A DNA stretch of 64,000 nt from Halorientalis litorea. Its GTDB lineage: Archaea; Halobacteriota; Halobacteria; Halobacteriales; Haloarculaceae. The stretch lies in contig NZ_CP095482.1 of assembly GCF_023028225.1 (NCBI RefSeq), forward strand, positions 2,728,001 through 2,792,000, given 5' to 3'. Both the position numbers and the translations under genes were made by a program. The notes under the pieces were generated by a model. The model was not told the DNA's origin, ran no database searches, and saw only the letters and a list, made by a program, of their open reading frames with translations. Shown here one piece after another: positions 3,972 to 58,387 of this stretch; the stretch's first letter is position 1; each line of letters starts with the position of its first letter.

Positions 3972-4664
3972 ATGACACGGCAGGCCGTCGAGGAGACGTT
4001 CGAGGAGTTCATCGACGACATCATCGAGGTGTCGCTGTCGGAGTTCGACGTCGTCGCGGCCTTGCAAGGGGGTTCGAACGTCGGGAGCCGCCTCGTCAGC
4101 AACCTCCTCAAAAACAGCGACCGCCTCAACCGGAAGGTCATCCAGCCGGAACTGGCGGACTACCGGAACCAAGTGACGACGCAGTTCGGCGTGTTGCTCG
4201 ACTACGCCGAGGACGACGGGGCGACGTTCGCGGAGTATCGCGACGCGGTGCTCGAACATGAGGTTTACTACCACCAACTGCGCGATGACGTGTCCGAACA
4301 GCGACGGGAGGAAATCGTCGAGGCTCTGTTGACCCGTCAGCGTGACCTCATCGAGGCCGCACAACCCCTCGTCGACTCCCCGGAGTCGGAGTTCTGGGCG
4401 GCGGCCGAGGACAGCATCGACTACGAACGCGCGACCGACCTCGTGGAACAGCACTTCACGTTCACCGACCCGCTTCGGGAGTACCCCGACGCCTTCCGGT
4501 TCGACGTGGCTGTCGACACCGGCGACATCGTTCCGGGACTGTTCTCCATCGGCTTCCCGACAGTGACAATCGAGTACACAGACGAGGTGGTGCGAGCACT
4601 CCAAGCGGCGGAGGCTACCGTCGTGGAGCGGACGCTCGAAGAGGTCGACCGCCGGTTCGCCTGA
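3972..4664 (+). CDS. Conserved-looking acidic protein of unknown function
   Basis: A 230-residue acidic, mostly helical protein that I do not recognise. It has no signal peptide and no clear membrane span. One moderately hydrophobic patch, DIVPGLFSIGFPTVTIEYTDEVV, sits near the C-terminus. I chose the ATG at 3972 over the GTG at 3963 because it begins the natural sequence MTRQAVEETFEEF and has an AT-rich element about 27 bp upstream. It follows the quinone oxidoreductase after 43 bp and converges with mptE with a 6-bp gap. Codon usage matches its neighbours, so it is very likely a real gene. Confidence 0.7.
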   Translation: MTRQAVEETFEEFIDDIIEVSLSEFDVVAALQGGSNVGSRLVSNLLKNSDRLNRKVIQPELADYRNQVTTQFGVLLDYAEDDGATFAEYRDAVLEHEVYYHQLRDDVSEQRREEIVEALLTRQRDLIEAAQPLVDSPESEFWAAAEDSIDYERATDLVEQHFTFTDPLREYPDAFRFDVAVDTGDIVPGLFSIGFPTVTIEYTDEVVRALQAAEATVVERTLEEVDRRFA

Positions 4665-4670
4665 CTGCCG

Positions 4671-5363
4671 TCAGCCGTCGACCGGGAGCGGGTCAGTGTC
4701 GATGCCCGCGCGCCTGCCGTCGAGCAGACCGAACCGCTCATTCCGGCGGCGTTCCAGCCAGTAGAGGAGTCGCTCGGCCCACGCGAGTTTCCGTGCCTTC
4801 ATCCCGTCTACGTTCGGGTCCTCGAACTCCCAGCCCACGAACTTCAGCCTGTCCGCGCCGAAGTGGTCGGCGAAGAACGCCGCCCTGTCCCCGTCGGTGA
4901 AGCCGCCGAAGTTCTCGACTGGTCCCGCCGGTGCGGCCTGCGTCGTCGGCAGGACGCGCCCGCTCGGTAACTCGGGGACGTACCGCTCGACGGCCGGAAC
5001 GTTGTCGCCGTGGGCGTGCGCCACGACGGTGACGCCCTGTTCCGCGAGGGGGGCCGCCCGCTCTGGGGCACCGTCGAAGTCCGTCACGAGATAGTCGACG
5101 CCGACGCCCGCCGACTGGAGGCGGTCGGCGGCCGACGACGCTGCAACCACCGCGTCGGCGGCCGCGGCCGCGTCTGCCTCGGCTTCGAGCGAGGGGGCGG
5201 CCCCGGCAATCGCCACGTCCGCACCGTCGAAGTCCACGCGTGCAGTATCGAACGGAGCGACTAGGTCGGCCAGTACGTCGCGCGCGCGCCTGTCCGCCCC
5301 CCGGCCGAACCCGAAGTCCGCGAGGATTGACTCGTACACTGGCTCCCACGCCTCGAAATCCAT
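4671..5363 (-). CDS. mptE: 6-hydroxymethyl-7,8-dihydropterin pyrophosphokinase MptE
   Basis: Archaeal (DUF115-type) 6-hydroxymethylpterin diphosphokinase, which makes the activated pterin for tetrahydrofolate or methanopterin-type cofactors. The 230-residue protein carries the family motifs VDYLVTDFDG and VVAHAHGDN, then the segment NFGGFTDGDRAAFFADHFGA and the helix GMKARKLAWAERLLYWLE. The frame extends upstream to 5417, but the ATG at 5363 begins MDFEAWEPVYESIL as in the family and has a TATA box at 5388-5396, 29 bp away. A large inverted repeat (5404-5451) lies just upstream of that promoter. Confidence 0.9.
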   Translation of the reverse strand: MDFEAWEPVYESILADFGFGRGADRRARDVLADLVAPFDTARVDFDGADVAIAGAAPSLEAEADAAAAADAVVAASSAADRLQSAGVGVDYLVTDFDGAPERAAPLAEQGVTVVAHAHGDNVPAVERYVPELPSGRVLPTTQAAPAGPVENFGGFTDGDRAAFFADHFGADRLKFVGWEFEDPNVDGMKARKLAWAERLLYWLERRRNERFGLLDGRRAGIDTDPLPVDG

Positions 5364-42824: not shown

Positions 42825-44084
42825 TCAGACCACGGTGACGGTCACGAGACCGACGGCCGCGGTCACTGCCAGCGACCCCGTGACCAACAACCCGAGTTTT
42901 CTGGTCCCCAGCACCCACGCGATACCCGCTTTGACGATGGTGTTCGACGCCGCCGCGATGACGATGCCCGTCGCCGCCACGTCCGTCGTGACCGTCCCGT
43001 CCTGAGCGAGACGGCTCAGCGAGAGCGTCATCGCGTCCACGTCTGCCAACCCGGAGACGAACGACGCGACGTAGACGCCGCTGGCACCGTAGCGGATACT
43101 CACCTGCTCCGAGGCCAACAAGACGACAGCGAAAATCAGCCCGAAAAACAGCGCGGGGCGCAACCGGAAGGGGTTCTCCAGTTCGATGTCGACCGACTCC
43201 CGGGTGTAGAACCAAACGACGGTCACGCCAGAGAGGAGGCCGCCCGTGGCGGTCATCGCCAGCAACGGGAGGGCGACACTGCTCACCAGTGCCGGGTTGA
43301 CGACGGTGACCTCCAGCAGTGCTCGCGGGAACATCGCCGTCGAGGCGACGACGACGGCGACGCCGGAGACGGGCCAGAGTGTGGGTTCGTCGTTCGTGTG
43401 CTGGGCCATCGATGCCGAGGTGGCCGTCGAAGAGACGAACCCACCTAGGACGCCGGTCAGACCGACGCCGCGCTCTGTGCCGAGGTACTGCGAGAGGAGA
43501 TACGCGAGGAGGCTGATGCCCGAGACGAACACGACCATCAGCCAGACGAATCGGGGGTTCAGTCCGAGCAGGGCCGGGAGACTGCGGTCCGGCAACAGCG
43601 GGAGGACGACGAGCGAGACGATGAGGAACTGGAGCGTCGCCCGGAACTCCTCGTGTTCGAGTCGGTCGGCGAAGTCGTGGACCGGTCCCTTCGCGGCGAG
43701 GACGGCCGTCGTCAGGACGCCGAGGACGACGGCCATCGTGTAGGCCGTCGCCGAGTGGGTCGTCATCGCGCCGTAGACGAACGTGAGGAGGAGCGCGGCC
43801 GTCGTCGTCGTCCCGAGGTCGCCCACGACGACGACCTTTCCGACGTACGCGCTGACGACGACGAGGCCGACGATGGCTCCGACGACCGGCAGCAGCGAGG
43901 GGAAGTACGCGCCCGTCAGCGCGCCGAGGAGTGCAAAGAGCGGGAACGTCCGACTCCCGGCGAACACGCCTGCAGAGTCGCTGCGCTCGCGCTCGATGCC
44001 GACGAGCACCCCGATGCCGAGCGCGGTGGCCACCTCGACGACCGGACTCGGTTCGAGCGACGTGACCGCGGCGGTTCCCGTCAC
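42825..44084 (-). CDS. MgtC/SapB plus DUF4010 membrane protein
   Basis: Membrane protein of 419 residues with about 12 spans. The N-terminal part is MgtC/SapB-like (ALGIGVLVGIERERSDS, RTFPLFALLGALTGA), and the C-terminal part is DUF4010 (LTGVLGGFVSSTATSASMAQ, YVASFVSGLADVDAMTLSLS, GIVIAAASNTIVKAGIAWV). The family is linked to magnesium or ion homeostasis and stress, but its mechanism is unknown. The start is a GTG (VTGTAAVTSLEPSPVVEVA). It lies directly downstream of the nos operon on the same strand. Confidence 0.87.
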   Translation of the reverse strand: MTGTAAVTSLEPSPVVEVATALGIGVLVGIERERSDSAGVFAGSRTFPLFALLGALTGAYFPSLLPVVGAIVGLVVVSAYVGKVVVVGDLGTTTTAALLLTFVYGAMTTHSATAYTMAVVLGVLTTAVLAAKGPVHDFADRLEHEEFRATLQFLIVSLVVLPLLPDRSLPALLGLNPRFVWLMVVFVSGISLLAYLLSQYLGTERGVGLTGVLGGFVSSTATSASMAQHTNDEPTLWPVSGVAVVVASTAMFPRALLEVTVVNPALVSSVALPLLAMTATGGLLSGVTVVWFYTRESVDIELENPFRLRPALFFGLIFAVVLLASEQVSIRYGASGVYVASFVSGLADVDAMTLSLSRLAQDGTVTTDVAATGIVIAAASNTIVKAGIAWVLGTRKLGLLVTGSLAVTAAVGLVTVTVV

Positions 44085-44144: not shown

Positions 44145-44954
44145 TCAGTCGCTCCAGACTGCGCGGATGGCGACGGCGATGGACCCACCGAGCCACAGGA
44201 GCAGGCTGACCGCGCCCGGCAACGGCGCGGCGAGGGGCGCGCTTCGGGCGTACGTCTCCCCGACGGCGAGTGCGTACACGAGACTCCGGTAGGCACTGTT
44301 CGGGCTGAGTGCCGCCACCGTCGAGAGCGAGTCGGTATCGACGAGGCCGCCGGAGAGCGCCGCCACGATGGTCGCGTCGAACCCGACGACGAAGGCGACG
44401 AAGACGACGACGGCGAGTGCGAGTGCCTGTCGTGCCGACCGGGCGACGGCCGAGACGGCGACGGCCACCGCCAGCGACACGACGGCGAACCCGGCTGTCA
44501 ACCCGACGAACCGGAGGTAGAGTGCGGGCGCGTCGACGGTACCGTGGGCGGCGACCACCGTAATCTCCGCCGGGCCGCCGAGGACGACGGCGAGGGCGGC
44601 CAGCAACATCGGGACGACGACGATGGGAACGAACCCGACCAACCGACCGAGGAAGACGCCGCCGACGTAGGCCGGGGCACTCACGGGGTAGGTCCGAATC
44701 GTCTCGAGTTCGCCGCTGTCGGCGTCCGAGAGGACCGCCCGGTACCCGAACGCGAACGCGAGCAGGGGGACGAGAGCCTCCGCCGGCGTCAACAGGTCCA
44801 GCAGGAGCGGGAGGTAGCCGCCCGTGCCGGCCGTGGCGACGAGGCCGAACAGGACGGCGGCGTACCCGGCACCCAACAGCAGGACGGTCCGGGCCCGGAC
44901 GACCGTATCGAACTCGCGTTGCGCGACGGCGAGGAGATGGTCGGGTCGGTTCAC
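44145..44954 (-). CDS. nosY: NosY-type ABC-2 permease
   Basis: ABC-2 type permease of 269 residues with about six spans. It begins (GTG) VNRPDHLLAVAQREFDTVVR, then GYRAVLSDADSGELETIRTY, a typical cytoplasmic signature of NosY-like permeases, and PVSAPAYVGGVFLGRLVGFV. With NosF it makes the ABC transporter of the nitrous oxide reductase maturation system, thought to move sulfur or copper-site components with NosD. The start overlaps the nosF stop (GTGA). Confidence 0.85.
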   Translation of the reverse strand: MNRPDHLLAVAQREFDTVVRARTVLLLGAGYAAVLFGLVATAGTGGYLPLLLDLLTPAEALVPLLAFAFGYRAVLSDADSGELETIRTYPVSAPAYVGGVFLGRLVGFVPIVVVPMLLAALAVVLGGPAEITVVAAHGTVDAPALYLRFVGLTAGFAVVSLAVAVAVSAVARSARQALALAVVVFVAFVVGFDATIVAALSGGLVDTDSLSTVAALSPNSAYRSLVYALAVGETYARSAPLAAPLPGAVSLLLWLGGSIAVAIRAVWSD

Positions 44955-45685
44955 TCGGCCACCCCCTCGGCGGGTTCGCGGGTCGTGACTTCCCCCGTCT
45001 CGCCGCCGACGAGTGCCGCCATCGCCGCTTCGAGGTCGTCCGTGTCCGTGCGGTCGCGCAACTCCGCGGGCGACCCCGTCGCGGCCACGGACCCGCGGTC
45101 GAGGACGATTACCACGTCCGCGATGCGGTCGACGGCCCGCAGGTCGTGTGTCGAGACCACCACCGTCCGGCCACCCCCCGCGAGGTCGGTCAGGACGGTC
45201 GAGATGTGCCGGGTCATCATCGGGTCGAGACCGCTCGACGGTTCGTCGAGCAACACGAGCGGCGGTTCCCCGACCGTCGCCTGTGCGATGCCGAGCAGAC
45301 GCGTCATGCCGCCCGAGAGCGCGTTCACGCGGCGGTCGGTCACGCCGCCGAGACCGACCCGGTCCGCGACGGCGTCCGCGTCGGTGTCGGCGGCCACGAG
45401 GTCCGCGTAGAACGAGAGCGTCTCACGGACGGTAAACTCTGGTCGGAACGCCGGTGCTTGCGGCAGGTAACCGACCGGTCTGTCCGCCTCCGAGGCGTAT
45501 TCGACAGTTCCCTCGTAGGAGAGGAGGCCGGCCACGGCCCGGACGAGGGTCGTCTTCCCTGACCCGTTCGGGCCGACGAGGCACGCCACCGTGTCCGTCC
45601 CGAGCGTTACCGAGGCCGAATCGACGGCCCGGAGGTCACCGAACGTGACCGTGAGGTCGTCGACGACGAGTGCGTTGTCAGTCAT
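44951..45685 (-). CDS. nosF: NosF-type ABC ATPase
   Basis: ABC ATPase of 244 residues. Walker A is CLVGPNGSGKTTLVRAV, the Q-loop is GYLPQAPAFRPEFTV, the signature is NALSGGMTRLLGIAQA, Walker B is PLVLLDEPSSGLDPMM, and the H-loop follows in VVVSTHDLRAVDRIAD. It pairs with NosY and overlaps both neighbours by 4 bp. The fusion-free short form is usual for NosF. Confidence 0.88.
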   Translation of the reverse strand: MTDNALVVDDLTVTFGDLRAVDSASVTLGTDTVACLVGPNGSGKTTLVRAVAGLLSYEGTVEYASEADRPVGYLPQAPAFRPEFTVRETLSFYADLVAADTDADAVADRVGLGGVTDRRVNALSGGMTRLLGIAQATVGEPPLVLLDEPSSGLDPMMTRHISTVLTDLAGGGRTVVVSTHDLRAVDRIADVVIVLDRGSVAATGSPAELRDRTDTDDLEAAMAALVGGETGEVTTREPAEGVAE

Positions 45686-47571
45686 GCTGTGGTGTTGAGT
45701 CTGTCGAGCGTCTCGGGGTGGACCGGGTCGACCAGCGGTGCCGTGTCGATGACACCGCTGGCCCGCAACCCCGGAAGTCGGTCCTGCACGGTTCTGAGGA
45801 GCGTCACCGCCGGTGAATCACGGAGCGTTACGCCGCCGGGTGTGCCCAGTAGCCCGCCGTCGATGGGTCCTGTCGGCCGGTACGTCGTCGTGAGCGTCTC
45901 GCCCCCTGCCGAGCGGCCCGGGAGCGCGCCCCAGTAGTTCCCGCGGCCGTCGGCAGTCCAGATGCGCACCGGACCGCCCCCCGCGCTCACTGCCTGCCGG
46001 TTGGCGACGATGTCGTTGCCGACGACGGTCAGCGACGGCAAGAGCGTGTCGGCTCTGACCCCGATGTCGTTGTCGACGACGACGTTTCCGGTCACGAGCG
46101 ACTGGGGTGCGGCGACCGAGAGGCCGATTTCGTTGTCGCTGACGACGTTGTCGGCGACGAACGACGCCGTCCCGGCCACGGTGATTGCCGCACGGGAGTC
46201 GGTCACTTCGTTGCCGACGAGCGCGTTCCGGCGCGGCCGCGTCATCACGATGATACCCCCGTAGGTGTCGCGTGCCGTGTTGTTCACCACCAGTGCCCGG
46301 GAGGTGTACATCTCGTGGACGCCGTATCTGAGGCCCTCCATCCGAGAGTTCCGGACGACGACGCCGTGTGCGCGGTGCGTGTACACGCCGTCGCGGCCCC
46401 CTTCGAACGTGACGTTCTGGACGACGACGGGGTCGAACATCGCCAGTACGCCCATGAATCCGTCCGGCCACTCGTCCGGACCCGTGACGTTCGAGTCTCG
46501 CACCACGAGGCCGTCGCTGGCACGAGCGAGGATGCCGTTGGCGTCCGTCTCGATGGTCAATCCTGTCGCCAGCGACTGGTTCGCGTCCTCGAAGCGGACG
46601 GCAGCGTCGCCCTGTCCGTAGGCCACCCTGATGCGTTGGTCCCACTCCTCGTCAGAGAGGTTCGCCAAGGACCGGGACCCGTTCGGGCCGACGCCGGTGA
46701 CTCGCAAGTCGGTCACGGCCGACCGGGGGGCCGAAACGTCGATGACCGTCCCCGTCCCGTCACCGGCGACGTGACTGTCCGAGCCTGCACCTGCGAGCGT
46801 GAGCGGCTTGTCGACGGTCACGTTCCCGTCGTAGGTGCCCGGCGGGAGGCGAACGGTGGTGTTGGGGGGTGCGCGGTCTATCGCCGCTGCGAGCGTCGGT
46901 ACGTCACGCCCCACGACAACCGACACCGGTCGCTCCGTCAGCGGGGCTGTCGCCGTCACCTGTCGGTCGGCCCACTCCGTTCGGTTCGAGACGTGTCGCG
47001 CCATGTCTGCGGTCGGTGACTCGTCGCGCTGACTCCGCGCGAGGACGCCCTGCCAATCGACCACGTCACCGCCGTAGCCCTCGGCGAAGCGCTCCGCGTC
47101 GTCCCGGTCGCTGAACGGGACGACGGCCGGTCCGGCGGGGGTGCGCGCGCGGCTATCGACCACGAACACCGCGGTCCGTGCCGGTATCCAGCCGCCACCG
47201 CCCCTGTACCCCTCGACGAGGTAGCCGCCGTCCGACAGTCGGAGTTCGGTGCCGCTGTAGTCGGTGACGAGCACTTCGAGCGGTGGCCCGAACTGGCGTT
47301 CGGTGTACGGGGCCGTGAGGTGGCTTGCGGCACTCTCGACGCCGTAGTAGCCGATGACGTACTGGTACTGTGAGAAGAACACCTCGGCTCGTGGGATGCT
47401 GTACCCGTCCTCTTCTGCCTCGTTCACGTCGGCACTGGTCATTCCCAGCGTGAGCGTCTCGCCGAACGGGGCCGGGTCCGGGTCGCTGGCGTCGAAGGGG
47501 TCGACGAGGAACCCCATCCCGGTGACCGAGACGAGGAGGACGACACCGACGAGCGCGTATGTGACTCGCAT
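45682..47571 (-). CDS. nosD: NosD-type beta-helix maturation protein with fused NosL-like domain
   Basis: A 629-residue exported protein. An N-terminal signal or anchor helix (YALVGVVLLVSVTGMGFL) leads into residues 45-178, which align with NosL (VTDYSGTELRLSDGGYL, TAVFVVDSRARTPAGPAVV, FSDRDDAERFAEGYGGDV, VDWQGVL). The NosL metal site CEVCGM is not present; the corresponding segment is DVNEAEEDGYS. Residues about 215-560 are the NosD parallel beta-helix (CASH repeats, e.g. VVVRNSRMEGLRYGVHEMYT, VVSDNEIGLSVAAPQSLVTG). NosD works with NosFY on copper-enzyme assembly. The ATG at 47571 is chosen; the 5' open frame to 47910 is the nosL gene's shadow. Confidence 0.87.
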   Translation of the reverse strand: MRVTYALVGVVLLVSVTGMGFLVDPFDASDPDPAPFGETLTLGMTSADVNEAEEDGYSIPRAEVFFSQYQYVIGYYGVESAASHLTAPYTERQFGPPLEVLVTDYSGTELRLSDGGYLVEGYRGGGGWIPARTAVFVVDSRARTPAGPAVVPFSDRDDAERFAEGYGGDVVDWQGVLARSQRDESPTADMARHVSNRTEWADRQVTATAPLTERPVSVVVGRDVPTLAAAIDRAPPNTTVRLPPGTYDGNVTVDKPLTLAGAGSDSHVAGDGTGTVIDVSAPRSAVTDLRVTGVGPNGSRSLANLSDEEWDQRIRVAYGQGDAAVRFEDANQSLATGLTIETDANGILARASDGLVVRDSNVTGPDEWPDGFMGVLAMFDPVVVQNVTFEGGRDGVYTHRAHGVVVRNSRMEGLRYGVHEMYTSRALVVNNTARDTYGGIIVMTRPRRNALVGNEVTDSRAAITVAGTASFVADNVVSDNEIGLSVAAPQSLVTGNVVVDNDIGVRADTLLPSLTVVGNDIVANRQAVSAGGGPVRIWTADGRGNYWGALPGRSAGGETLTTTYRPTGPIDGGLLGTPGGVTLRDSPAVTLLRTVQDRLPGLRASGVIDTAPLVDPVHPETLDRLNTTA

Positions 47572-47579
47572 GCTCGCCG

Positions 47580-48212
47580 TCAGTTCCGCCCCAGTCGGCC
47601 GATGACTTGCGGCGTCACCTCGTCGAGCGTCAGCAACTCGCCCCCGTACTCGTCGGCGAACGACTCGGCGTCCCCGCCGTCGGTGAACGCGATGAGGTCC
47701 CGCCCCATCGCGCCCTTGACCTCCGACCCGACGACGAAGGTGACTGCACTCGCCTCCACGAAGGCGTCCGCTTCGGGGTGGGTCGAAATCAGCAGGTCGC
47801 CGCCCTCGTCGGCGATGTCGTAGTCGACGGCGGAGTAGTCGGTCACGTACATCACGGCGCGTTCCCACCCCCGGTCCGAACGCTCGAAGTCGTACTGGAA
47901 CGCTTCCCACGTGCTGTCGAACCGCGCTGGGTTCTCGTGCCCGGAGGGTTCCCTGCCGGGGTAGAATATCTCCGTCGACGGGCCGGGATGGTTCGGAATA
48001 ATCATCCCACAGACTTCACAGGCGTCGTCCGTCGTCAGCGTCACCGCCGACGGGACTTCCTCGGTATCACCGTCCGTGCCGAGGTTCGAACACCCGGCGA
48101 GTGACACGGCTCCCGCCGCCGCGACGCCTTCGAGGACGCGCCGCCGTCCCAGGTGATAGTTACAGTCAGTCTGCTCGCCCGCTCGTCCGCCAGTCTTGTG
48201 TTTGTCGCACAT
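47580..48212 (-). CDS. nosL: NosL-type copper lipoprotein with Tat signal
   Basis: A 210-residue exported copper-binding protein. A Tat-type signal (GRRRVLEGVAAAGAVSLAGC, lipobox Cys at 41) targets it as a lipoprotein. The metal site CEVCGM gives C65, C68 and M70, the usual NosL copper ligands, followed by the NosL fold (HENPARFDSTWEAFQYDFE, AVMYVTDYSAVDYDIADEG, GRDLIAFTDGGDAESFADEY). Unusually, before the Tat motif the protein has two C-x2-H pairs, CDKH (2-5) and CNYH (17-20). It is the first gene of nosLDFY. No nosZ is nearby. Confidence 0.88.
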   Translation of the reverse strand: MCDKHKTGGRAGEQTDCNYHLGRRRVLEGVAAAGAVSLAGCSNLGTDGDTEEVPSAVTLTTDDACEVCGMIIPNHPGPSTEIFYPGREPSGHENPARFDSTWEAFQYDFERSDRGWERAVMYVTDYSAVDYDIADEGGDLLISTHPEADAFVEASAVTFVVGSEVKGAMGRDLIAFTDGGDAESFADEYGGELLTLDEVTPQVIGRLGRN

Positions 48213-48350: not shown

Positions 48351-49397
48351 TCAGTGCCGCTGTGACTCCACGCAGTCGACGATGGGGCCGACGATTTCGT
48401 CCGCGACGGCGTAGGGGTCGGTCTCGCGGTCGGCGACCCGGTCGACGAACTGCTCCATCCCGCCACGCGCCTCGATTTCGTCGGCCAGCAGGGCGGCGGT
48501 GTCCTCCCGGATGAGTGCCCGTATCTCGCTGGCGTAGCGGTCCCGCTCTTTCTCGACCAGTTGCCCGGAGGCTTCGAGGAACGTGCGGTGGTCCGCGAAG
48601 GCCGCGAGTAAGTCTTCGAGTCCGTCGCCGGTTTTCGCCACCGTTTCGACGATTGGTGGGTCCCACACGGTTTCGTCGTCGGCGTCGCCCGTCCCGGAGC
48701 CGCCCCCGGTGTCCGTCTCGACCGTGCCGTGGTGCCCCGTCGCTACCGCGAGGTCGTTCCGGCGCATCTCAAGCATCTCGCGGAGTTCCTGAACTGTGCG
48801 GTCGGCCCCGTCTAAGTCCGCCTTGTTGACCACGAACAGGTCCGCGATTTCGAGGATGCCCGCCTTCAGCATCTGCACGTCGTCGCCGCTGGCCGGCGGG
48901 ACGAGGACGGCGACGGTGTCCGCCGTCTTCACGATGTCCACCTCGTTTTGCCCCGCACCGACCGTCTCGATGAGAATCTTGTCCTTGCCGAAGGCGTCGA
49001 GAGCCTTCACGGCGTCCGTCGTCGCCGTCGAGAGACCGCCCAGTGTTCCGCGGGCTGACATCGACCGGAAGAACACGTCCATGTCGCCGACGTTCGAGGC
49101 CATACGGATGCGGTCGCCCAACACCGCCCCGCCGGTGAACGGCGAGGACGGGTCGATGGCGATGACGCCGACGGTCTGTCCCTGGTTGCGGTAGGCCTCT
49201 GCCAGTTTGTCCACCAGCGTGGACTTGCCCGCCCCGGGGCTACCGGTGATGCCGATGACATCAGCGTGGCCGGTGTGTTCGTGGAGTGCCGAGACGAGGT
49301 CCCGGTAGCCCGGCGACCGGTCCTCTATCTTCGTGATAGTGCGGGCCAGCGCGCGGTGTTTCCCCGCGAGCAGGTCTTCGATGAGTTGTTCGGTCAC
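48351..49397 (-). CDS. meaB: Methylmalonyl-CoA mutase-associated GTPase MeaB
   Basis: G3E-family GTPase (ArgK/MeaB) of 348 residues that loads and protects the B12 cofactor of methylmalonyl-CoA mutase. The P-loop is GITGSPGAGKSTLVDKLA, switch and base motifs are VGVIAIDPSSPFTGGAVLGD, ILIETVGAGQNEVDIVK and FVVNKADLDGADR. A mid-region insertion (TGGGSGTGDADDETVWD) replaces a loop. The start is GTG, and it follows the mutase small subunit after 40 bp. The product enables propionyl-CoA use. Confidence 0.94.
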   Translation of the reverse strand: MTEQLIEDLLAGKHRALARTITKIEDRSPGYRDLVSALHEHTGHADVIGITGSPGAGKSTLVDKLAEAYRNQGQTVGVIAIDPSSPFTGGAVLGDRIRMASNVGDMDVFFRSMSARGTLGGLSTATTDAVKALDAFGKDKILIETVGAGQNEVDIVKTADTVAVLVPPASGDDVQMLKAGILEIADLFVVNKADLDGADRTVQELREMLEMRRNDLAVATGHHGTVETDTGGGSGTGDADDETVWDPPIVETVAKTGDGLEDLLAAFADHRTFLEASGQLVEKERDRYASEIRALIREDTAALLADEIEARGGMEQFVDRVADRETDPYAVADEIVGPIVDCVESQRH

Positions 49398-49437: not shown

Positions 49438-49854
49438 TCATCGCTCGTGGACGTTCTCGCGGACGAACTCGATTATCTCGTCCATCGACGCACCGGGACC
49501 GAAGACGCGGGCGACGCCCTGGTCGAGCAGCTCATCACGGTCCTCTTCGGGGATGATGCCGCCGACGAGAACGAGTGTGTCGTCTTTCGCGCCGTACTCT
49601 TCGAGGCCGTCGAGGACTTTCGGTACCAGCGTGTTGTGCGCGCCGGAGAGAATCGAGATGCCGAGTACGTCCACGTCCTCTTGGACCGTCGCTTGGACGA
49701 TTTCGTCCGGTGCCTTGTGCAGGCCCGAGTAGATGACCTCGAACCCGGCGTCCCGGAAGGCGCGAGCGATGACGTGCGCACCCCTGTCGTGGCCGTCTAA
49801 CCCGACCTTGCCGACCAGACACCGTATCGTCCGTTGCTCTTGCTCCGCGCTCAT
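49438..49854 (-). CDS. Methylmalonyl-CoA mutase, B12-binding (small) subunit
   Basis: Cobalamin-binding domain of methylmalonyl-CoA mutase as a separate 138-residue subunit. The B12 motif is GLDGHDRGAHVIARAF (D-x-H-x2-G, the histidine ligating cobalt), followed by ISILSGAHNTLVPKVLDGLE and VLVGGIIPEEDRDELLDQGV. The catalytic large subunit is not in the window. Start ATG 49854 chosen, since upstream codons lie in the divergent promoter region. It heads a two-gene unit with meaB. Confidence 0.92.
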   Translation of the reverse strand: MSAEQEQRTIRCLVGKVGLDGHDRGAHVIARAFRDAGFEVIYSGLHKAPDEIVQATVQEDVDVLGISILSGAHNTLVPKVLDGLEEYGAKDDTLVLVGGIIPEEDRDELLDQGVARVFGPGASMDEIIEFVRENVHER

Positions 49855-49942
49855 GCCCCTCTCTAACACGGTGGATGATTTCACTCTTATCGTTGTGCCC
49901 GGAACCCGACGGACTGAAGAAACTCGACGCCTCAAGTCCGGT

Positions 49943-50578
49943 ATGGCCGCTGCCGAGACTCTCGGACGCTTTCCGAAGGCTCATCCCCGTGTCGTGACCG
50001 CCGTGCTGTCGGTTGTCGGGTACATCCTCGTCCTCGGTGCGTTCGGCGGGGTGCTCCCGTTCCCGACCATCGAGCGCGGGACGGTCAACCTGCTCGGGGA
50101 CGCTATCGCCGTCGTGAACACCGCGGCATTGGCGGCTATCCTCGTCGGTGTCCGGTTCATCCGTCGGGGCGAAGTCCGCAAACACCGCGCCGCGATGCTG
50201 ACCGCTTTCAGCCTGATTATGGTCTTTCTGGCCCTGTACCTCCTCAAGGTCGGTGGCGGGTTCGAGAAGGCAATCCTCGCCAAAGGCGTGGTGCTGTGGG
50301 CCTACCTCGCCATGCTCGCGATTCACATTCTCCTGTCGGCACTCTCGGTGCCCGTCGTCCTCCACGCCGTCGTCCTCGGACTGACGCACACGCCCGAGGA
50401 GTTGCGGGACACGGTTCACAAGCGCGTCGGCCGCGTCGCCGTCGCCGCGTGGGGCCTCTCGCTGGCGTTGGGCATCGTGACGTACCTGATGCTCAACCAC
50501 GTGTATGGCTGGGAACCGCGGGCAGAACTCCTCTTGCTGGTCGCCGTGCCGAACCTGTGGGAGAAATTGGACGGCTGA
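49943..50578 (+). CDS. DUF420-family membrane protein
   Basis: A 211-residue membrane protein with about five spans. PFPTIERGTVNLLGDAIAVV and EVRKHRAAMLTAFSLIMVF contain the conserved charge and H patterns of the DUF420 family, e.g. RRGEVRKHRAAM, with later HILLSALSVPVVLHAVVLG. DUF420/CtaM-type proteins are associated with haem-copper oxidase assembly and cytochrome oxidase loci. The start at 49943 gives MAAAETLGRFPKAHP. Function is inferred, not shown, here. Confidence 0.82.
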   Translation: MAAAETLGRFPKAHPRVVTAVLSVVGYILVLGAFGGVLPFPTIERGTVNLLGDAIAVVNTAALAAILVGVRFIRRGEVRKHRAAMLTAFSLIMVFLALYLLKVGGGFEKAILAKGVVLWAYLAMLAIHILLSALSVPVVLHAVVLGLTHTPEELRDTVHKRVGRVAVAAWGLSLALGIVTYLMLNHVYGWEPRAELLLLVAVPNLWEKLDG

Positions 50579-53563: not shown

Positions 53564-54919
53564 GTGGACCTGTTCGCTAGCAAAGAGGACCTGCAACTGA
53601 CTGCGGGGAGCGTGCGCGGTCCGTTGTTCAAACTCGCCGTCCCCGTCGTCCTCGCCACCCTGCTCCAGACGGTGTACAACCTGACCGACACCTTCTGGGT
53701 CGGGCAGTACGACAGCACCGCGCTCGCGGCACTGACGTTCTCCTTCCCCCTCGTGTTCCTCTCGCTCGCACTCGGCGGCGGTGTCTCGACCACCGGTCGC
53801 ATCCTCGTCGCCCAGTACGAGGGGGCCGGTGACCGGCGTGACGCGGGCGTCGTCGCCGGCCAGACGCTGACCTTCGCCGTCGCCGCGGCACTCGTCGTCG
53901 CCGGCCTCGGCGTCGTCGGCGTGCCGCCGCTGTTGGCCGCCGCCGGTGCTGGGCCCGACGTTGCCCCGCTCGCGGAGACGTACCTCACCTACGTCCTCGC
54001 GGGCCTGCCGCTACTCTTTCTCGCCGCGACGTTCTCGGCAGTCCTCCAAGGCTACGGGGACACCGTGACGCCACTGCTCGTCGTCGCCGCCTCCGTCCTG
54101 TTGAACATCGTCCTCGACCCCGTGCTGGTGTTCGGACTCGGCCCAGTCCCCGAACTCGGCCTGCGCGGGGCCGCCATCGCCACGCTCGGCGCGCGTGGGG
54201 TGGCCGCCGTCGCCGGCGTGTGGTTGCTCGTGTCGGGCCGTGTCGGACCGGGTGTCCCCCTCGGGGACATGTGGCCGCGACGGGCGTACCTCGCGCGCGT
54301 CCTCCGACTCGGAGTCCCAGCGTCGCTCGAAACCACGGCCATCGCCGTCTCCGTCACGGCGATGCTGTTCGTCGTCGGGCGGTTCCCCGAACCCGTCGTC
54401 GCTGGCTTCGGTATCGGCGAGCGCGTCCTTTCGCTGATGTTTCTCCCAGCCATCGGCGTCGCCAGTGCCACGACGACGATGGTCGGGCAGAACCTCGGCG
54501 CGGACGAACCGGAACGAGCGCGCCGCGCCGCCCGAATCGCCGTCGGCTACCCCCTCGTCGGCTTGACTGCCGTCGGCCTCCTCGTCGTCGCCGCGGCACC
54601 AGTCGTGGCCGGCGTGTTCACGCCCGACGACGCCGTTATCGGCCACGCGGCAGCCTTCCTCACCTACACCGGGCCGGCGTTCGGGCTGGAGGCGGCCCTC
54701 CGGGTGTACAGCGGCGTGTTCCGCGGTGCCGGTCGAACCAGCGTGGCGATGGTTGTCACCGGTGTCGCGTTCCTCCCCGTCCGCCTCGGCCTCGCGCTCG
54801 CGCTGGTCGGGCCACTCGGGCCGACGGCAATCTGGGTCGCCTACGCGGTCAGCGGTCTCCTCGGTGCGGGACTGGCCGCGCTGGTCGCCCGGACCATCTC
54901 GTGGGAACGGCTGGTTTAG
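53564..54919 (+). CDS. MATE-family efflux transporter
   Basis: MATE exporter of 451 residues with 12 spans, likely Na+- or H+-driven efflux of cations or drugs. Motifs: VLATLLQTVYNLTDTFWVGQ, GGGVSTTGRILVAQYEGAG, LLNIVLDPVLVFGLGPVPE, and SATTTMVGQNLGADEPERAR. The start is GTG 53564 (VDLFASKEDLQLTAGSVR). It converges with the SelW-like gene and overlaps it by 4 bp. Confidence 0.92.
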   Translation: MDLFASKEDLQLTAGSVRGPLFKLAVPVVLATLLQTVYNLTDTFWVGQYDSTALAALTFSFPLVFLSLALGGGVSTTGRILVAQYEGAGDRRDAGVVAGQTLTFAVAAALVVAGLGVVGVPPLLAAAGAGPDVAPLAETYLTYVLAGLPLLFLAATFSAVLQGYGDTVTPLLVVAASVLLNIVLDPVLVFGLGPVPELGLRGAAIATLGARGVAAVAGVWLLVSGRVGPGVPLGDMWPRRAYLARVLRLGVPASLETTAIAVSVTAMLFVVGRFPEPVVAGFGIGERVLSLMFLPAIGVASATTTMVGQNLGADEPERARRAARIAVGYPLVGLTAVGLLVVAAAPVVAGVFTPDDAVIGHAAAFLTYTGPAFGLEAALRVYSGVFRGAGRTSVAMVVTGVAFLPVRLGLALALVGPLGPTAIWVAYAVSGLLGAGLAALVARTISWERLV

Positions 54920-55146
54920 ACGTACTGCCGCGCGCGGCGCACCGTCTCGTCCACGTCGAACTCGTCGTCTGCGATATCGAACACCGGTTCTCCGTCGACG
55001 GTGACGCGGAACACGCCGTGGTCGCCGGTTCGGAGCGTCACCGCGTCGAGTCGCTCGCCGAACGCCGTGAGGAGCGCGCGCTGGACGCTCACCGCTCGGT
55101 CGAGGTATCCACAGGGGACGCAGTATTCGATTTCGACTTCGGTCAC
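54916..55146 (-). CDS. SelT/SelW/Rdx-family redox protein
   Basis: Thioredoxin-like Rdx-family protein of about 76 residues. It begins VTEVEIEYCVPCGYLDRAVS with the C-x2-C motif in the first loop, then LLTAFGERLDAVTLRTGDHG and VFRVTVDGEPVFDI. In this family a selenocysteine can replace one cysteine; here both are cysteines. I prefer the GTG at 55146; a TTG at 55173 is also open. TTTTGAA on the coding strand about 27 bp upstream fits as TATA. It may be last in a ctaB-containing unit, 39 bp after the 226-residue membrane protein. Confidence 0.8.
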   Translation of the reverse strand: MTEVEIEYCVPCGYLDRAVSVQRALLTAFGERLDAVTLRTGDHGVFRVTVDGEPVFDIADDEFDVDETVRRARQYV

Positions 55147-55185: not shown

Positions 55186-55866
55186 TCAGCGGCCGAAGGG
55201 CCGCCAGTACAGCAGGCCGACCGTCACGACGAACACGACCGTCGAGAGACCGTATGATTGGGCGTACACCGCGCCCGCCAGTGCCGTCCCGGTGCCTGCC
55301 ACGCCGGTCACGACCGTTGCCAGAATCGGCCACGTGCAACTCACGCACGAGAGCAGACCGAGCAGTCCCGTGACGGCCGACCCCGCGGCGTCGATGACTG
55401 TCGCGTAGACGAGATACGCGAGCGCGGCGTAGCCGACGACTTTGAACGGCAACAGCGTGACGGCGACCACCGACCCGTTGTACAGGACGGCCGGCCCCCA
55501 TCCCGGCGGGATGGAGAGCGCGGCGATGCGGAACGACGAGGGGCCGGGCGTGGCGAGGCCGAACAGGCCACCGAAGTAGCCGAGGAGGACGAAGTAGCCG
55601 ACGGCGACGGCGGCCGCGAGTCGTCGCTGTCGCGTCCCCGTCGGTGCCGGGTCGGTTCGGAGGACGGCCCACACACCCACGTTTATCCAGACGAACGGGT
55701 ACACCCAGTAGCGCAGTCCGCCGGCACTCGTCAACTGGGCACTCGAGACGAGCCAGTACAGCCCGAGTGCGAAGAGTTCGACGTTGAGGACCAACAGCCC
55801 CCACAACACTGTCTCACGGCTGATGTCGAAGCGGTCCAGCCAGTTCGCGGTGGCGGTGTCTGTCAT
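55186..55866 (-). CDS. Haloarchaeal membrane protein downstream of ctaB
   Basis: A 226-residue membrane protein with about seven spans, not assigned to a characterised family. Spans include ETVLWGLLVLNVELFALGLY and GLLGLLSCVSCTWPILATV. SCVSC holds two cysteines close together (C-x2-C) within a membrane segment, which could bind copper or form a disulfide. It is translationally coupled to the CtaA-CtaB fusion gene (ATGA overlap), so a role in haem-copper oxidase assembly is possible. That is inference from position. Confidence 0.75.
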   Translation of the reverse strand: MTDTATANWLDRFDISRETVLWGLLVLNVELFALGLYWLVSSAQLTSAGGLRYWVYPFVWINVGVWAVLRTDPAPTGTRQRRLAAAVAVGYFVLLGYFGGLFGLATPGPSSFRIAALSIPPGWGPAVLYNGSVVAVTLLPFKVVGYAALAYLVYATVIDAAGSAVTGLLGLLSCVSCTWPILATVVTGVAGTGTALAGAVYAQSYGLSTVVFVVTVGLLYWRPFGR

Positions 55867-57284
55867 AGCGCGAGTGCATCGACGACGACGGCGAGCAGGA
55901 GCGCGCCGAGATACGCGTTCGAGGCGTGGAAGGCGCGGAAGGCCGCCCCTTCGGTCTGCTCACGGTGGAGCCTGACGACTGCCCAGAGGAACACCGTCCC
56001 GAGCGCGGTGGTCGTCGCGGCGTACACCCAGCCCAGTTCCGTCACCGCGGCCAGCACCGTCGCGGCGAGCAGGGTGGCCCCCAGCCACAGGAGGATGTGC
56101 TTGCGCGTCGTCGCCTCGCCGCGGACGACGGGCATCATCGGGAACCCGCCGCGCTCGTAGTCGTCCTTGTACGCGAGCGCGAGATTGTAGAAATGGGCGG
56201 GCGTCCAGACGAAGATGACGCCGGCCAACACCACGCCCGGTATCCCGATAGAGCCGGTGACGGCGGCCCACCCGATGAGTGCCGGGAGCGCGCCCGCCGC
56301 ACCGCCGATGACCGTGTTCTGGACCGTGTTCGGCTTGAGGACCAGCGTGTAGACGATGCTGTAAAACAGGATGGCGACGAGGCCGAGCACCGCCGCGAGG
56401 GGGTTCAACTGCAGGAACACCGCGAGGGAGGCGGCGGCCAGTGCCAGCCCGAACGCCATCGCGTTGCGGACCGGCACTTGGTGGGTCGCTATCGGCCGGT
56501 CGCTGGTGCGGTCCATCTGCTTGTCTCTGTCGCGCTCGAAGACGTGGTTGAACGTCCCGCTGGCCCCGATTGCGAGGACGCCGCCGCCGAGCGTCAGAAC
56601 GACGGTGCGGACGGTCAAGGAGGGACCGGCAGCCAGTGCCATACCGGCGGCGGCGACCAGACAGAGCAGCCACATCAGCCGAGGTTTCGTCAGGCGGAAG
56701 TAGGCCATGCCGACGGCCTTCGCCCGGCCGAGCGCGCTGTCGGGGAGCGGCGGCTGGTCGAGCGGTTCGTCGGCCGCCTCGGCACTCGGCGGTTCGAGGG
56801 TCGGTGATTCCTCGGGTTCGTCGGTTTCGGCGGGTTCGAGGTGCCACGCCAGCGCGAGGGTCAGTGCCGCGAAGATGCCCATGCCCGCGACGAGGTGGGC
56901 GAGGGGGAACGGGGCGGCACCGGTCTCGACGGCGACGAACGCGCCGACTACGACCTGGACGGGGTAGAGAACGAGCGCGACGCCCAGTGCCACCCGGACG
57001 CGGGTCGAGATGTCGTCACGGCGGAGGCTGGCGAGTGCGGCCACGAACAATAGGACGAACACGAGCGCGGCCACGGCGCGGTGGGTCCACGCGACGGCCA
57101 GTGCGGGCGTGGCGAGCGTCGGTGTCTGTGCACAGACCGGCCACGACGGGCAGGCACTCGCGGCGTCGGAGATGGCGGCGGTCGCACCGAGAACTACCAG
57201 CAGGTACACGCCAACGGCGGTGCTGGCGAGGAGCGTCGCAAACCGCGGGCGGCCGGTGGCCCCAAACACCGATGGAACTCTCAC
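55863..57284 (-). CDS. ctaB: CtaA-like domain fused to haem O synthase CtaB
   Basis: A 473-residue fusion. The N-terminal about 150 residues have four spans with AWTHRAVAALVFVLLFVAAL and AHLVAGMGIFAALTLALAWH, each with a conserved His as in half of a CtaA/COX15 haem A synthase. A hydrophilic Pro/Glu linker follows (PEESPTLEPPSAEAADEP). The rest is UbiA-type CtaB (YFRLTKPRLMWLLCLVAAAG, NHVFERDRDKQMDRTSDRP, FVWTPAHFYNLALAYKDDYE) that farnesylates haem B. A GTG at 57284 is chosen: TATA-like CATAAG (57309-57314) is 27 bp upstream. Confidence 0.88.
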   Translation of the reverse strand: MRVPSVFGATGRPRFATLLASTAVGVYLLVVLGATAAISDAASACPSWPVCAQTPTLATPALAVAWTHRAVAALVFVLLFVAALASLRRDDISTRVRVALGVALVLYPVQVVVGAFVAVETGAAPFPLAHLVAGMGIFAALTLALAWHLEPAETDEPEESPTLEPPSAEAADEPLDQPPLPDSALGRAKAVGMAYFRLTKPRLMWLLCLVAAAGMALAAGPSLTVRTVVLTLGGGVLAIGASGTFNHVFERDRDKQMDRTSDRPIATHQVPVRNAMAFGLALAAASLAVFLQLNPLAAVLGLVAILFYSIVYTLVLKPNTVQNTVIGGAAGALPALIGWAAVTGSIGIPGVVLAGVIFVWTPAHFYNLALAYKDDYERGGFPMMPVVRGEATTRKHILLWLGATLLAATVLAAVTELGWVYAATTTALGTVFLWAVVRLHREQTEGAAFRAFHASNAYLGALLLAVVVDALAL

Positions 57285-57308
57285 TAGTCGTTCCTTGTCG
57301 CGGGTCCA

Positions 57309-57314
57309 CTTATG
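57309..57314 (-). promoter_or_regulatory. TATA box of the CtaA-CtaB gene
   Basis: Minus-strand CATAAG, centred about 27 bp before the GTG at 57284. It supports that GTG over the frame opening at 57356. Confidence 0.5.
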
Positions 57315-57385
57315 CCCCCCGCTTCGGCGTCGACGGCGGCGCGAGAACCGCGTCACGAGGGACGGGCTGGGCGGAAGACAGTAGG

Positions 57386-57418: not shown

Positions 57419-58387
57419 ATGAACCGCAAGCGCGCCGGGCTGATGGGCCTCTTCAGTGCCGCGCTGTTGCTGGTGGCGGTCGAACCCGCCCTCGCGCAGA
57501 CCAGTACCTCCACGACGGAGAGCCTCATCTGGGGGCTGAACATGAAGCTCCTCTACGTGGCGATACCGATCACCATCCTCGTCGAGGGTATTCTGGTGTA
57601 CACGGTCTGGAAGTACAGCAAGAGCGACGAGGCCAAACCCACACAGGAGAACCGCCGACTCGAAATCACGTGGACCATCGCGACAGCCGTCATTCTCCTC
57701 TTCGTCGGCGTCGCGTCCTATCAGGTCCTCGGGAACCCGTACGTCACCGCCTCGACCGCACAGCAAGAGCAGGTCGAGGAGATGGAGCAGATTGACGTCA
57801 TCGGGCAAAAGTACATCTGGTACTTCCAGTACGACGACATCAGTGCCGAGGACGTCTCGGCCACCGGGCTGACGCTCGAAAACGTCTCCGTCGAGGGCGG
57901 GGAGGTGGTCAGTACCGGTGACGACGGCACTGTCGTCGAGGGGGCAGAACTCACCGGGGCTGGTGTCGAGTCCGCAACGCTCGACTCCGCGACTGTCTCC
58001 GGTATCGATGCGAACGAAGGCGAGAGCGTCTCCGCCGACGGTGTCGATGTCTCGGACGCCAACATCTCGGACGCGACGCTCGCCGGTGCCTCCGTCAGAA
58101 CGACGGAGACGATGGTGATGCCCGCAAACGAGGACGTGCGCCTCAACATCACCTCGGTCGACTGGCTCCACGCCTTCCACGTCCCGAGCCTCGGGCTGAA
58201 GTCCGACGCCTTCCCCGAGCAGTCGAACTACCTGCAGACGAACGTCGGTGAAACCGGTACCCATCAGCTCTACTGCGCTGAATACTGTGGCACGGGCCAC
58301 TCCGGGATGCTCGGAACGGTCGACGTGCGCTCACAGAACGAGTACCAGCAGTGGCTCGTCCAGCAGTGGGTAGAAGACAACCAGTAA
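57419..58387 (+). CDS. coxB: Cytochrome c oxidase subunit II with inserted repeat segment
   Basis: Subunit II of a haem-copper oxidase, 322 residues. An N-terminal signal (LMGLFSAALLLVAVEPALAQ) and two spans are followed by the CuA cupredoxin domain. Ligands: H251 in WLHAFHVPS, then C286, E288, C290, H294 and M297 in YCAEYCGTGHSGM. Residues about 140-228, between KYIWYFQYD and MVMPANEDV, are an insert of pentapeptide-like units (ESATL, DSATV, SDANI, SDATL, AGASV). Homologues have a short loop here. No coxA is downstream; the next gene is convergent and 1 bp away. So subunit I must be elsewhere. Confidence 0.92.
   Translation: MNRKRAGLMGLFSAALLLVAVEPALAQTSTSTTESLIWGLNMKLLYVAIPITILVEGILVYTVWKYSKSDEAKPTQENRRLEITWTIATAVILLFVGVASYQVLGNPYVTASTAQQEQVEEMEQIDVIGQKYIWYFQYDDISAEDVSATGLTLENVSVEGGEVVSTGDDGTVVEGAELTGAGVESATLDSATVSGIDANEGESVSADGVDVSDANISDATLAGASVRTTETMVMPANEDVRLNITSVDWLHAFHVPSLGLKSDAFPEQSNYLQTNVGETGTHQLYCAEYCGTGHSGMLGTVDVRSQNEYQQWLVQQWVEDNQ

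Follow-up and report, generated by a model that had tools for sequence, protein, structure and literature searches.

NosDFYL systems and the locus of Halorientalis litorea

The copper-delivery machinery NosDFYL of Pseudomonas stutzeri (PDB 7O0Y, 7OSF, and 7ZNQ) consists of the β-helical protein NosD, the ATPase NosF, the permease NosY, and the lipoprotein NosL, which carries a CxxCGM motif. The deletion of nosL in Paracoccus affects the CuZ centre of nitrous oxide reductase, whereas CuA remains full unless copper is limiting (PMC6530538). Bacterial NosL is specific for CuZ under copper sufficiency, and under copper shortage it may supply CuA as well (PMC6530538). The statement in the initial annotation of the locus described here, that NosDFY and NosL mature the copper centres of nitrous oxide reductase, is therefore incomplete with respect to NosL. 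The nosZ-linked nosDFY(L) sets of haloarchaea, such as those of Haloferax larsenii (pHl5678-2) and Natronococcus occultus (plasmid 2), have the gene order D-F-Y and adjoin nosZ and the gene of a membrane protein; a cupredoxin of the halocyanin type is often encoded there too. Their NosD is about 461–463 residues long, lacks a NosL domain, and groups with bacterial NosD.

An orphan NosDFYL is already known in one bacterium. Parageobacillus thermoglucosidasius has a nosL-nosDFY set without NosZ, for which an alternative copper client was proposed, with the copper nitrite reductase NirK tentatively favoured; the available portion of that report describes no fusion of NosL to NosD (PMC13068155). 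Assembly of CuA in cytochrome oxidase is known from the ScoI-TlpA-CoxB module of Bradyrhizobium, which contains no ABC transporter and in which TlpA reduces Sco and CoxB ahead of copper insertion (PMC6696091). Two reviews of the factors that assemble oxidases make no mention of NosD or NosL (PMC6696091, PMC9145763). Our literature search, which covered few subscription papers, retrieved no account in which the haloarchaeal NosD variant described below is set apart from the nosZ system or tied to oxidase assembly.

We analysed a stretch of 64,000 nucleotides of the H. litorea genome (the window). It contains a tight minus-strand cluster of nosL, nosD, nosF, and nosY at positions 44145–48212 (Table 1). 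The contiguity of the four genes had been noted from the sequence and was borne out: the stop codon of nosL and the start codon of nosD are separated by 8 bp, and the nosD/nosF and nosF/nosY junctions overlap by 4 bp each. Coordinates and Pfam matches also confirmed meaB upstream and a DUF4010 gene downstream. A scan with sigma-70 promoter and terminator models, which are ill-suited to archaea, found nothing.

Table 1 Features of the nosLDFY cluster and its surroundings (positions in the window)
Feature	Coordinates	Strand	Remarks
DUF4010/MgtC gene	42825-44084		downstream of cluster
nosY	44145-44954	-	ABC-2 permease; PF12679
nosF	44951-45685	-	ABC ATPase; PF00005; motif reading
nosD	45682-47571	-	NosL-like/NosD β-helix fusion, 629 aa; ATG at 47571
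NosD right-handed β-helix core	45724-46929	-	about residues 215-616; structure match to NosD 7OSF_A and 7O0Y_A
NosL-like domain of NosD	47032-47454	-	about residues 40-180; without CxxC
nosL	47580-48212	-	Tat/lipobox-type signal (RR...LAGC) and NosL domain with CEVCGM at about 48003-48020
meaB	48351-49397		upstream of cluster
DUF420 membrane protein (CtaM-like oxidase assembly factor)	49853-50578	+	1.6 kb beyond nosL; PF04238, 105 bits
Rdx (SelT/SelW/SelH-like)	54916-55146	-	beside heme O synthase
DUF7546 membrane protein	55186-55866	-	beside heme O synthase
Heme O synthase (UbiA family)	55863-57356	-	PF01040, 217 bits
CoxB, CuA subunit of cytochrome c oxidase	57419-58387	+	PF00116 and PF02790; CuA motif CAEYCGTGHSGM

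The products of the cluster correspond to the components of the P. stutzeri system. The free NosL matches PF05573 with 136 bits, NosL of PDB entry 7OG7 with an E-value of 2e-14, and NosL of the NosDFYL complex 7OSF with 1e-11. It combines a lipobox with a Cu(I)-binding CxxCGM motif, which reads CEVCGM, as expected of a NosL chaperone. NosD contains the Pfam NosD domain (PF05048, 87.8 bits; cut-off 23.6), and its score against TIGR04247, 184.5 bits, is short of the curated cut-off of 300. Residues 226–624 align to 7OSF_A, from the NosDFYL complex, with a Z-score of 40.8; the β-helix also matches 7O0Y_A, with a Z-score of 40.3. The Walker A, signature, and Walker B motifs of NosF are all intact, and the protein matches NosF of 7O0Y_B with an E-value of 3.5e-34, although ABCA-type ATPases score higher. 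The single PDB match of NosY is NosY of 7O0Y_D (E-value of 8e-6). With a NosD fold and cognate NosF and NosY encoded in the same operon, the system belongs to the NosDFY-type copper ABC transporters. Unlike that of P. stutzeri, it is not accompanied by nosZ, its NosD comes from a separate clade, and this NosD carries in addition an N-terminal membrane-anchor helix and a NosL-like domain devoid of CxxC.

A NosL-like domain within NosD

The initial annotation proposed that the N-terminal part of NosD resembles NosL and lacks CEVCGM. Profile searches, matches to PDB entries, and a structure prediction all substantiate the proposal. PF05573 matches at about residues 57–176 of 629 with 55.9 bits (cut-off 24), and the domain matches PDB NosL 2HPU with an E-value of 2e-4 as a single sequence and 3e-8 as a family profile. 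The AlphaFold model of NosD, calculated from an alignment of 48 sequences, has a mean pLDDT of 87.7. It contains, in order, an N-terminal membrane-anchor helix (residues 2–19), an α/β domain (about 40–180), a long helix (186–213), and the β-helix. The comparison of the modelled domain with NosL that had been suggested placed it on NosL 7OG7 in a Foldseek search (TM-score of 0.70 by target length, rmsd 2.3).

Neither the fused domain of this NosD nor that of any of 133 fused relatives contains CxxC, and in 118 of the 133 the stretch of the domain examined is free of cysteine. The free NosL and the fused domain of the same operon are 33% identical over 72 aligned positions. We infer that the fused domain is a copper-dead module for docking or pairing. 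The fusion is already visible in public annotation, where one entry carries the name 'nitrous oxide reductase accessory protein NosL/NosD'.

Two kinds of NosD in Halobacteria

The absence of nosZ beside the cluster, recorded initially, extends to the whole genome of the host, which belongs to the genus Halorientalis, is 3.2 Mb in size, and is 99.94% complete. A search with the NosZ profile TIGR04246 returned only matches to the CuA-containing tail (best E-value of 2e-12), the top one being a ba3-type subunit II. The identical query retrieved full NosZ at E-values below 1e-150 from 41 of 146 relatives of the family. The profile PF18764 (nos_propeller) was replaced by TIGR04246 because it matched nothing, controls included. 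The suggestion that nosZ has moved elsewhere is thus refuted for this genome, and the nosZ expected in the same genome as a nitrous oxide reductase maturation system is missing from the host.

Full-length fused NosD is encoded in 72 of the 146 family genomes, and 45 of these 72 lack nosZ. Haloarcula hispanica ATCC 33960 encodes fused NosD on a plasmid of 405 kb. Short matches to the window NosD (about 207–620 of the query, near 30% identity) lie about 1–3 kb from nosZ. The sampled nosZ loci have the order nosZ, membrane protein, short NosD, F, and Y, often with a cupredoxin and sometimes with NosL. In nearly all of the loci L104–L113, a conserved membrane protein of about 230–295 residues with no Pfam match is encoded directly after the haloarchaeal nosZ. 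Annotated records from Haloferacaceae and Natrialbaceae agree in that their nosZ-linked NosD is unfused and of the length given above. In a tree of 147 NosD cores, the fused proteins form one side of a branch with a support of 100, and the short haloarchaeal NosD proteins group with those of alphaproteobacteria. The fused clade spans many genera, and none of its members sits in a nosZ operon. A scan of 84,980 species genomes gave 75 loci among the best 80 matches, all of them haloarchaeal by title and all relatives of the fused query.

The initial annotation had allowed that the fused domain might be universal in haloarchaeal NosD next to nosZ. This does not hold, since all nosZ-linked haloarchaeal NosD proteins examined are unfused and the fused ones form a separate clade. 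Loci, annotated records, and tree all separate fused from nosZ-linked NosD, and we therefore rejected the view of the fusion as no more than a haloarchaeal version of the nosZ-linked protein. The sole fused locus near nosZ, at a distance of about 8.6 kb in genome G089, is accompanied by a separate unfused nosDFY adjoining that nosZ. In Haloferax mediterranei, a NosD near nosZ was listed with a NosL family domain, and nosFY were said to be missing (PMC9240420); the related H. larsenii has unfused NosD, F, and Y beside nosZ.

The same data bear on whether the fused cluster is what remains of a nosZ cluster that was lost, or supports nosZ from a distance. Its family-level likeness to NosDFYL and the presence of both fused NosD and nosZ in 17 Haloarcula genomes (genus g3) speak for such an origin or role. 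However, nosZ operons have their own unfused NosDFY, the fused NosD forms a clade of its own, and the fused cluster is intact across many nosZ-free genomes and genera. Among 108 genomes taken as near-complete, 65 with fused NosD and 43 without, fused NosD is not associated with nosZ either overall (p = 0.32) or when stratified by genus (p = 0.60). We regard this explanation as largely refuted and highly improbable.

Genomic neighbours and the candidate copper recipient

The initial annotation suggested that the machinery serves another CuA enzyme, for example the CoxB encoded about 9.2 kb from nosL. The CoxB, heme O synthase, and DUF420 setting of nosLDFY is found again in other Halorientalis and, in part, in genus g8, and the pairing with CoxB is kept in most Halorientalis loci examined. 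In Bacillota, aa3-type oxidases depend on the DUF420 protein CtaM (PMC9145763), and DUF420/CtaM was suggested to export copper towards Sco (PMC13344008). However, meaB and a B12-binding gene are equally kept in Halorientalis and g8, so synteny alone could explain the setting, and in other genera the nearby partner is Sco or ba3 oxidase rather than CoxB. The specific pairing with CoxB is therefore the weaker part of the suggestion. The Rdx and DUF7546 genes beside heme O synthase, which are also found repeatedly in Halorientalis, may likewise be connected with oxidases.

Predicted neighbours of the fused loci were clustered and then named, and those within about 10 kb were counted. The recurrent ones are Sco (PF02630), a CcdA-like membrane protein, which has no Pfam match and was named by sequence reading, a TlpA-like redoxin, and DsbD_2. 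Also found were subunits I and II of ba3 oxidase (COX1, COX2), a P-type ATPase that contains a heavy-metal domain, an HTH regulator of the HVO_0163 type, and DUF7471. Among 49 fused loci of Haloarculaceae, Sco occurs near 15, CcdA near 14, and the TlpA-like protein near 13; none of the three was found near 11 nosZ loci or 39 random loci. In 52 fused loci from families left out when the search profiles were built, Sco is present near 14 (0 of 39 random loci, p = 2e-4), DsbD_2 near 13 (0 of 39, p = 4e-4), and any of six core genes near 19 (1 of 39, p = 7e-5), where the random loci all come from Haloarculaceae and match the other families imperfectly, and the loci share ancestry and are not independent. 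No nosZ lies within about 10 kb of these 52 loci. Roughly half of the fused loci, if not more, lack all of these genes within 10 kb, among them the 12 loci from Haloferax without exception. A ba3 (CuA) oxidase is encoded close to fused nosDFY in five loci (L065, L068, L081, L082, and L144), some of which also contain a Cu-ATPase, Sco, or DsbD_2. The host genome encodes ba3 subunits I and II, a Cu-ATPase, Sco, DsbD_2, and a halocyanin-like protein in one module (G000:C1:2557447-2565349), located 209 kb from nosLDFY.

The association with Sco extends to whole genomes. Sco was detected in 47 of the 65 near-complete genomes with fused NosD and in 8 of the 43 without (OR 11.4, p = 5e-8; genus-stratified p = 2e-5), leaving 18 fused genomes in which it was not detected. 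In the Haloarcula-type genus g3, Sco is present in 17 of 20 fused genomes and in none of the nine others; the two genes are often on one plasmid-sized contig there, so co-inheritance may account for part of the co-occurrence. The survey of haloarchaeal genomes that had been proposed as a check thus showed that fused NosD without nosZ is widespread. CuA-like matches were obtained in 138 of the 146 genomes, too many for their presence to be diagnostic. The association with ba3 (OR 9.2 overall) disappears once stratified by genus. The ba3 oxidase as the only client is unsupported, given this null result and the genomes G072–G074 (Halorhabdus type), which encode fused NosD and Sco yet gave no match to ba3.

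Copper might instead go to another cupro-enzyme, chiefly NirK, as proposed for the bacterial nosL-nosDFY without nosZ (PMC13068155). The host encodes NirK (G000:C1:486657-487604), as do 53 of the 65 near-complete fused genomes (OR 5.1). In genomes G100, G115, G121, and G132, Sco lies about 1–3 kb from nirK and may serve NirK in some haloarchaea, so that Sco alone is no pointer to CuA. However, the association with nirK vanishes when stratified by genus (p = 0.85), and nirK lies within about 10 kb of one fused locus only (G129), compared with ba3 within about 13 kb of five and Sco near many. CcdA- and TlpA-type factors, which recur next to the cluster, fit the chemistry of CuA better than that of NirK. 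We consider delivery to NirK or another such enzyme unlikely. A rather doubtful alternative is a transporter for general copper homeostasis (uptake, export, or stress protection) that serves no particular client enzyme. An HVO_0163-type regulator and DUF7471 often adjoin the cluster, Cu-type P-type ATPases sometimes do, and a plasmid annotation names the permease a copper ABC transporter permease. Against this, Sco and the thiol-redox partners that recur near the cluster belong to assembly and not to general homeostasis, and the core of NosD retains the client-loading NosD fold.

CuA assembly is classically accompanied by Sco and by thiol factors of the TlpA and CcdA types, and the neighbours of the fused cluster belong to the Sco and TlpA families of the Bradyrhizobium module (PMC6696091), which makes delivery to an oxidase the best-supported function. 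The linkage to Sco, CcdA, TlpA, DsbD_2, and ba3 together with the co-occurrence of Sco gives real, if indirect, support to the part of the suggestion that concerns another CuA enzyme, and on this basis the fused cluster may deliver copper to subunit II. With moderate confidence, we propose that the cluster is a nosZ-independent NosDFYL variant whose targets are heme-copper oxidases and, most likely, their CuA site in subunit II. A machine of the NosDFYL type has probably been given a second job in haloarchaea. More tentatively, the fused clade could represent a second, ancient haloarchaeal machine of this type, which would be a dedicated ATP-driven loader of the CuA or another site of respiratory oxidases and an as yet undescribed route of oxidase metallation by an ABC transporter.

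Under the proposed mechanism, the lipoprotein NosL would use its CEVCGM motif to bind Cu(I) on the outer side of the membrane and then dock on the NosDFY transporter, where the copper-dead NosL-like domain of NosD may provide a permanent surface for docking or pairing. ATP hydrolysis by NosF would shift NosY and the β-helix of NosD, so that copper could be handed to the apo-enzyme, alongside Sco. The thiol-reducing factors CcdA, TlpA-like protein, and DsbD_2 would hold the copper-binding cysteines reduced. If machines of the NosDFYL type load oxidases, NosDFY becomes a general copper-loading ABC system, and annotations of nosD, nosF, nosY, or nosL without nosZ should not be counted as a potential for nitrous oxide reduction.

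Loci L091–L094 (g15, Natronomonas type) contain a tandem pair of fused NosD-F-Y sets with NosL close by; the two NosD copies fall into different branches of the tree, which indicates an old duplication. A plasmid of Halobacterium salinarum (pKBTZ03_355, L232) carries only a broken remnant of fused NosD around positions 4001–4691; the remnant adjoins a small gene and one for an HTH protein and appears to be a decayed locus. CxxCGM was found in 43 of 104 free NosL proteins, an underestimate because the gene caller trimmed many starts, and only clear cases were used. The free NosL of fused clusters L171, L177, L180, and L183 (Halorubrum) and L087 and L088 (Halovenus type) has DHGM or GGM in place of CxxCGM, and its copper site may have been rebuilt.
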